Source: a virus. From it: DNA of 27,811 bases. The notes below the pieces were generated by a model that was not told the DNA's origin, did not search any database, and saw only the letters and a list, made by a program, of their open reading frames with translations. A program made the translations under genes and the position numbers. Below, piece by piece: positions 27,382 to 27,811 of this stretch. How positions within the stretch are numbered: the first letter of the stretch is position 1; every line of letters starts with the position of its first letter. Where the stretch lies: positions 1 through 27,811 of IMG/VR virus record IMGVR_UViG_3300006853_000053, one strand, 5' to 3'.

Positions 27382-27398
27382 CTGATGACATTTTAAAG

Positions 27399-27417
27399 TG
27401 TGACCGGATTTGTTACC
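27399..27417 (+). repeat. Left pair of TGTKACC arm-type sites
   Basis: TGTGACC and TGTTACC are separated by five bases, GGATT. The second is part of the imperfect palindrome GTTACCCGTAAC (27412-27423). They lie 18 bases upstream of the integrase start codon, so binding by Int could also repress int. Confidence 0.6.
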
Positions 27418-27496
27418 CGTAACTGAAAAATGCCACATAACAAGAGTTAAGAACAATCGGCTGAAACGCTGTACTGTCGCGGCTTTCAGCCTTCCG

Positions 27497-27541
27497 TGAT
27501 CCCGCTGGGACTCGAACCCAGGACCCCAACATTAAAAGTGT
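27497..27541 (-). pseudogene. 3' part of tRNA-Lys(TTT), attachment core
   Basis: On the minus strand the sequence runs ACTTTTAATGTTG, GGGTC, then CTGGG-TTCGAGT-CCCAG (a perfect T arm), CGGGATC and A. This is the anticodon loop (TTT after a T), variable loop, T arm and 3' acceptor strand of a tRNA-Lys. The 5' acceptor (GATCCCG or GGTCCCG) and D arm are missing upstream, so it cannot be a working tRNA. The fragment would restore the 3' end of the host gene on integration. Confidence 0.8.
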
Positions 27542-27631
27542 GAGGCCCCGAAATGCCCATTGCGTTAATTCCTTGTTTATGGCCTTATTGCGTATTACGA
27601 TTATTGTTATATGCCGCCATATTTTGCGGCG

Positions 27632-27650
27632 TGTTACCCTTTCTGTGACC
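27632..27650 (+). repeat. Right pair of TGTKACC arm-type sites
   Basis: TGTTACC and TGTGACC are again separated by five bases (CTTTC), in the opposite order to the left pair and the same orientation. They lie directly after the stop of the helix-turn-helix-like gene (which reads leftward and ends at 27658). Confidence 0.6.
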
Positions 27651-27657
27651 TGCAAAA

Positions 27658-27811
27658 TCATTTCTTTTTCGCCTTGTAATTTGCTTCCAATTCAGTGAGC
27701 GCCTGCCGGATGCGGGCCAGCGGCGTGTCGTTGGTTTCAGATCGAAACATATCGGTGCTGAACCCGTAGATATAATTCATGTTGCACCTGGTGAGCTTTG
27801 CCAGTTCGTAC
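27658..27811 (-). CDS. Small helix-turn-helix-like protein, C-terminal part (partial)
   Basis: The minus-strand frame is open from the right edge to a TGA at 27658-27660 and gives 50 residues without a start in the window. ELAKLTRCNMNYIYGFST followed by TPLARIRQALTELEANY resembles the second and third helices and the closing helix of an XRE-type DNA-binding domain, as in small phage Cro or repressor proteins. It would fit a lysogeny regulator adjoining attP, but the call rests on a short pattern. The stretch 27542-27657 before it has no gene, only the right arm sites and a weak hairpin. Confidence 0.45.
   Translation of the reverse strand, partial: YELAKLTRCNMNYIYGFSTDMFRSETNDTPLARIRQALTELEANYKAKKK

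Follow-up and report, generated by a model that had tools for sequence, protein, structure and literature searches.

The stretch of DNA analysed here, called the window throughout, is a linear virus record of 27,811 bases in which terminase, portal, major head and tape-measure genes are present. At its right end an integrase gene (int) lies on the minus strand, and the intergenic region of about 280 bases (279 bp) that separates its start from the neighbouring minus-strand gene holds all elements of a putative phage attachment site, attP (Table 1). This neighbouring gene, truncated by the window end, probably encodes a small helix-turn-helix protein, a label given without a profile match from the appearance of the sequence and from similar genes at the equivalent position in relatives (L006/L025 and L007/L027 among them); between its stop and the distal pair of repeats described below there are 7 bp. 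ARAGORN also called a tRNA of unknown type at positions 189-262 of the window, at the edge of open reading frames, which is probably a false call.

Table 1 Features of the putative attP region and the genes beside it (positions in the window)
Feature	Position	Strand	Basis
Tyrosine integrase, 418 aa	26125..27381	-	Pfam PF00589, E 2.9e-8; PHROG 1 integrase, E 1.5e-19
Outer half of inverted repeat around the P' pair, TGACATTTT, just upstream of int	27386..27394	+	Repeat search; relatives
TGTGACC, putative arm site, outer member of the int-proximal (P') pair	27399..27405	+	Four-site search; pair conserved in relatives
TGTTACC, putative arm site, inner member of the P' pair, 12 bp period	27411..27417	+	Four-site search; conserved in relatives
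Inner half of inverted repeat around the P' pair, AAAATGCCA	27427..27435	+	Repeat search; relatives
Phage-supplied hairpin directly after the tRNA 3' end	27459..27491	-	8-bp perfect stem; equivalent hairpins in relatives
attP core, 46 bp identical to the 3' half of host tRNA-Lys(TTT), reading ACACTTTTAATG...GGGATCAC	27496..27541	-	Matches on L017-L020; ARAGORN
Anticodon loop CTTTTAA, candidate 7-bp strand-exchange (overlap) region	27532..27538	-	Distance from P pair to loop; crossover of the G358 prophage
TGTTACC, putative arm site, inner member of the distal (P) pair	27632..27638	+	Four-site search; cognate pair score 15/16
TGTGACC, putative arm site, outer member of the P pair, 12 bp period	27644..27650	+	Four-site search; cognate pair
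Probable small helix-turn-helix gene, 3' end, truncated by the window end	27658..27811	-	Translation; sequence appearance; HTH-like genes at the equivalent place in relatives

An earlier note on this DNA had described four TGTKACC heptamers next to the integrase gene, forming two pairs of identical 12-base spacing, and these were recovered, all of them on the plus strand. An unbiased search of the intergenic region, with lags of 8-24 and all four-site placements allowed, singled out precisely these four sites, with lag 12 and a score of 38/42; the maximum was 33 in 300 dinucleotide shuffles (0/300 as good) and 35 in 98 other tiles of the window. The P pair, scored as cognate of the other, reached 15/16, which none of 200 shuffles equalled. 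On the int strand the two pair units read GGGTAACA and CGGTCACA and differ by a base. The inner heptamers are separated from the tRNA half by 78 and 90 bp, similar to the distances of about 80 and 91 given before, and the description of the site as symmetric is appropriate for the spacing but not in the sense of inverted symmetry, all four sites pointing in the same direction. The heptamer by itself was rejected as evidence, since TGTKACC is not enriched in the window (eight occurrences versus 5.8 expected).

The core had been claimed to be half of a tRNA-Lys, and this proved correct: four other contigs (L017-L020) carry complete tRNA-Lys(TTT) genes, named as such by ARAGORN, with whose 3' half the window shares an exact 42-bp match, and the identity to these genes extends over 46 bp, beginning in the 5' anticodon stem and reaching the final base of the tRNA, the core thus ending at the tRNA 3' end. 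Rfam returned a sub-threshold tRNA match, as is expected for half a gene. Judging from the sequence, strand exchange most likely takes place in the anticodon loop; counted to the start of each pair, this loop is separated in the window from the P pair by 113 bp and from the P' pair by 120 bp.

The integrase, whose start ATG was set from the conserved N-terminus of its relatives, consists of an N-terminal beta-beta-beta-alpha domain resembling arm-binding domains (residues ~1-90), a core-binding domain and a catalytic domain. Its AlphaFold model (mean pLDDT 90) contains the N-terminal three-strand-plus-helix domain, and the best match among solved structures is full-length lambda Int (1z1b, E 3.5e-10), arm-binding domain included. 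This domain is recognised as arm-binding by its predicted fold only; in 26 members of the family it gave no confident match to the arm-binding families of Pfam, and Phage_int_SAM_5 was matched by these integrases once, weakly. The active-site residues are Arg271, Lys296, Tyr363, Lys366, His388 (in most members) and Tyr398. In an alignment to a Xer recombinase, Tyr363 and Lys366 occupy the places of the His and Arg of the HxxR motif, and this replacement by YxxK is found in 26/26 aligned members, both residues being invariant, an unusual active site for a tyrosine recombinase. Some members deviate at the N-terminus: in L031 and L054 it is shortened and diverged, and these loci are devoid of the 12-bp pair and carry CTCTAAC-type repeats at about 9 bp instead. 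In L038-L040, L044 and L045 the integrase match starts only at residue 112 and the frame opens shortly before; the arm-binding part seems to be missing there or encoded elsewhere.

Scans with the integrase and with alignments of the integrase yielded ~40 related loci; a scan of genome contigs with the single integrase gave no match, an alignment being required as query. Among 24 non-redundant integrase loci, the window included, 18 show, within 75 bases upstream of the int start, an 8-base lag-12 repeat that is nearly perfect, whereas other lags from 4 to 40 are represented in at most four of the 24 loci and shuffled sequences gave a mean of 1.8 and a maximum of 6. Below the strict cut-off fall L016 and L027 (weakly), L015, L031 and L053 (without a clear pair) and the window itself, the latter because its two units differ by a base. 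Control integrases with canonical HxxR, which we take to be CTnDOT-like, have a lag-12 pair upstream of int in 4/26 cases, as compared to the 18/24 of the window family, and a 12-bp pair common to all Bacteroidota tyrosine integrases is therefore not supported; single control cases, for example L017/L066, L067 and L093, look similar. With each member's own unit as query, a second lag-12 pair was detected beyond the tRNA half, clear in about a dozen members and weaker in others (in L027, the P pair is weak). The distance from the start of the P pair to the anticodon loop is 111-114 bp in 11/11 attP sites, the two pairs are 226-233 bp apart in 10/11 sites measured, and the interval from the tRNA end to the start of the P' pair is 69-77 bp in 10/11, the remaining value being the 50 bp of phage phi46:1.

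What is conserved here is geometry and not letters. The three closest relatives (integrase 48-52% identical) possess TGTGACC pairs with the 12-bp period on both sides of a tRNA-Gly-like half, and only in these is the heptamer conserved; remoter relatives keep the 12-bp pairs and the distances, but with the units GTTAACA, GGTAACA, GCTAACA, TATCACA or GTTAATA. A fixed TGTKACC motif across the family was thus rejected. The earlier note had proposed an alignment of attP regions from relatives with the same integrase, and such a comparison turns out clearly positive, recovering the pairs, their period and the distances in most relatives and the letters of the heptamer only in the three closest; lack of heptamer conservation, which the note would have taken as refutation, is too strict a measure, since it is the geometry that is conserved. 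The targets vary as well: the attP sites of relatives correspond to tRNAs for Gly, Met, Arg, His and Phe (judged by eye from the anticodon loop) and that of the window to Lys, and the complete tRNA genes beside integrated members are those for Met, Phe, Lys and Asn (ARAGORN). As the TGTGACC unit is common to the window and its three closest relatives despite the Gly-like target of the latter, arm unit and target evolve separately. Because this rigid layout recurs in distant relatives in spite of changed letters and changed tRNA, the four repeats are almost certainly docking sites for the arm-binding part of the integrase.

An integrated relative, the prophage in G358, provided an independent check. 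At one end it displays a complete tRNA-Asn, a hairpin, the pair CGTTAATAAAATCGTTAATA and int; at the other end (attR), 40.4 kb away, an identical copy of the pair precedes a 3' half of tRNA-Asn by 112 bp, measured between their starts. From the anticodon loop onwards the two tRNA halves agree in 17 bases before they diverge, which places strand exchange within those 17 bp, and the summed arms imply 228 bp between the pairs, the value of unintegrated members. In this one prophage, from which the division of the arm sites was read, the logic of attP held, the arm pairs being split between attL and attR.

Alternative explanations of the repeats have to be weighed against these data. That a common heptamer should merely recur by chance next to a piece of tRNA could be argued from the near-expected frequency of TGTKACC in the window, but the four-site arrangement is matched in none of the 300 shuffles and its spacing is conserved across the integrase family, so that the comparative data already refute this explanation; its probability is practically negligible, and the earlier judgement that such a recurrence is unlikely was justified. 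Binding by the integrase is nevertheless not self-evident, because excisionases, or recombination directionality factors (RDFs), likewise bind tandem direct repeats separated by about one helical turn inside attP (five direct repeats at 10-11 bp for Apl of phage 186; PMC7498355), and their sites would be equally conserved there. That the paired repeats are excisionase sites and not integrase sites we still regard as improbable: there are two repeats on each arm with a period of 12 rather than 10-11 bp, as opposed to the usual array on one arm, the pairs are nearly equidistant from the core with one pair at each prophage end, four sites match four Int protomers, and the similarity of the units follows that of the integrase N-terminal domain. 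In a Mantel test on 16 related sequences, unit similarity correlated with the similarity of the N-terminal domain (r 0.48, P 0.0006), also when the catalytic domain was controlled for (r 0.33, P 0.008); the catalytic domain, in contrast, makes no further contribution when the N-terminal domain is accounted for (r 0.08, P 0.30). This covariation, a correlation between sequences, favours integrase arm sites over excisionase sites, and together with the two sites per side and the period of 12 it makes the integrase the favoured binder.

Still less credible, in our estimation, is the idea that the P' pair mainly is an int operator for a phage repressor, its resemblance to an arm site being incidental. 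The pair ends 17 bp before the int start in the window and lies 1-28 bp from the int ATG in most relatives, and an inverted repeat surrounds it in about half of the loci, both of which would suit an operator. On the other hand, the identical unit is paired once more beyond the core, at a constant distance and remote from int, and in the G358 prophage this second pair sits at the opposite end.

Our preferred reading, held with a probability of roughly 0.92, is that positions 27399-27650 represent the attP of a temperate Bacteroidota phage, whose adjacent lambda-like integrase would use four arm sites through its N-terminal domain around a tRNA-Lys core. The parts of this reading taken from sequence are the four sites, their geometry, the tRNA half, the conservation, the split pairs in the prophage of a relative and the covariation with the N-terminal domain; the lag-12 pair in 18/24 loci, the fixed distance from P pair to loop and the split pairs support attP strongly. 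Int binding, the exact cleavage positions, synapsis and autoregulation we infer, in the following manner. The integrase would bind the four direct arm sites, one pair per side, via its N-terminal domain, and four Int protomers would loop the DNA, with the catalytic domains acting at the core, where strands would be exchanged in the anticodon loop of the tRNA-Lys 3' half. Integration would rebuild an intact host tRNA-Lys with a new 3' half and the hairpin contributed by the phage; of the resulting prophage, one end would carry int together with the P' pair and the opposite end the P pair, and Int sitting on the P' pair, close to its own start codon, would probably repress int.

Autoregulation of int by Int at the P' pair is plausible, by position and by analogy with the KplE1 prophage, whose intS shares the tRNA-then-int orientation and has arm sites beside the int start (PMC2951348), an arrangement that allows repression of the integrase gene by its product; in E. 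coli, elements built in this way show autoregulation (PMC2951348). KplE1 is, however, enterobacterial with a mapped promoter and RDF, while the system of the window is known from sequence position. The hairpin of the window is weak (z -1.1), yet a hairpin is found at the equivalent place in 15/16 sites folded (window included) and is followed by a T-run in many relatives, so that the hijacked tRNA appears to obtain a new terminator from the phage; in the window the hairpin would close off the restored tRNA and keep read-through from the tRNA out of int. An inverted repeat encloses the P' pair in 8/17 loci (0.85 expected) as opposed to 0/9 for the P pair, and the inverted repeat ATTTTGC/GCAAAAT of the P arm in the window was accordingly rejected as a family trait. 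In the P' repeat the letters vary while complementarity is kept, and the right half can overlap the int start codon; our guess is that it constitutes a further control of int expression.

In phage lambda, the arm sites of attP number five and are unevenly placed, sites for IHF and Xis are present and the core lies outside any tRNA gene; the active site of Int is RKHRH/Y. With the present locus, lambda Int/attP has in common that arm sites lie on both sides of the core (PDB 1z1b, 5j0n; PMC4880445). A closer likeness in attP layout is found in the mycobacteriophages CrimD and Giles, where, in the part of PMC3203893 drawn upon here, two pairs of arm-type repeats flank the common core with int beside it, the pairs of Giles are in direct orientation, CrimD has a putative stem-loop terminator between the core and the P3 site comparable to the hairpin described above, and unit sequences differ among relatives together with N-terminal substitutions (PMC3203893); a layout of two arm pairs with a terminator between the core and one pair therefore is a kind already known. 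The second pair of CrimD is inverted, though, its repeats are 11 bp long and its core lies in tmRNA, and the arm sites of both phages, which have actinobacterial hosts, are predictions for which that part reports no fixed spacing (PMC3203893). Among Bacteroidota, the IntCTnDOT subgroup (CTnDOT and NBU1 of Bacteroides; PMC8138268) comprises tyrosine integrases with an N-terminal arm-binding domain, and NBU1, like the window phage, targets a tRNA gene (PMC8138268), but at the very 3' end of tRNA-Leu (PMC10865867) and not at the anticodon loop. The catalytic residues of IntCTnDOT are RKHRH with a variable Arg I, whereas the window family keeps Arg I and has Lys as Arg II. On L017, an integrase with canonical HxxR (1-1254), probably CTnDOT-like, lies beside the tRNA-Lys (1480-1553), with a 12-bp direct pair TTCGGTATACTATTCGGTATAC between tRNA and int; this suggests, from sequence, similar arm pairs in some other Bacteroidota integrases. 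An isolated member of the family itself is the Cellulophaga phage phi46:1 (KC821611), whose integrase is 34% identical: CGTTAACA-type pairs at 12 bp surround a tRNA-Phe-like half, the P pair lying 111 bp from the anticodon loop, whereas the P' arm is about 24 bp shorter. The examined region of the phi46:1 record, which gives Cellulophaga baltica NN016046 as the host, is devoid of arm-site annotation.

A search of the literature, most subscription journals being outside its scope, returned no description of arm sites in this integrase family or of a YxxK active site, and as far as this search reached, the Bacteroidota phage integrase family, its rigid distances and its YxxK active site are new. 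To our knowledge, arm sites have seldom been mapped in Bacteroidota phages. Taken jointly, a distinct and undescribed family with YxxK in place of HxxR, a divergent arm-binding domain, a ruler-like attP (12-bp pairs, the P pair 111-114 bp from the loop and the pairs ~230 bp apart, with geometry frozen but letters and tRNA free) and control through the P' inverted repeat is a proposition on which we are evenly divided. The lysine in place of the catalytic arginine is an oddity open to testing, and the natural covariation of arm unit and N-terminal domain offers a ready data set for arm-site recognition. Such integrases could serve as integration tools for Bacteroidota. By the rule of a lag-12 pair before int and a P pair 111-114 bp from the loop, attP, attL and attR become readable from sequence, fragments included, and the tRNA target of the phage is indicated at the same time.
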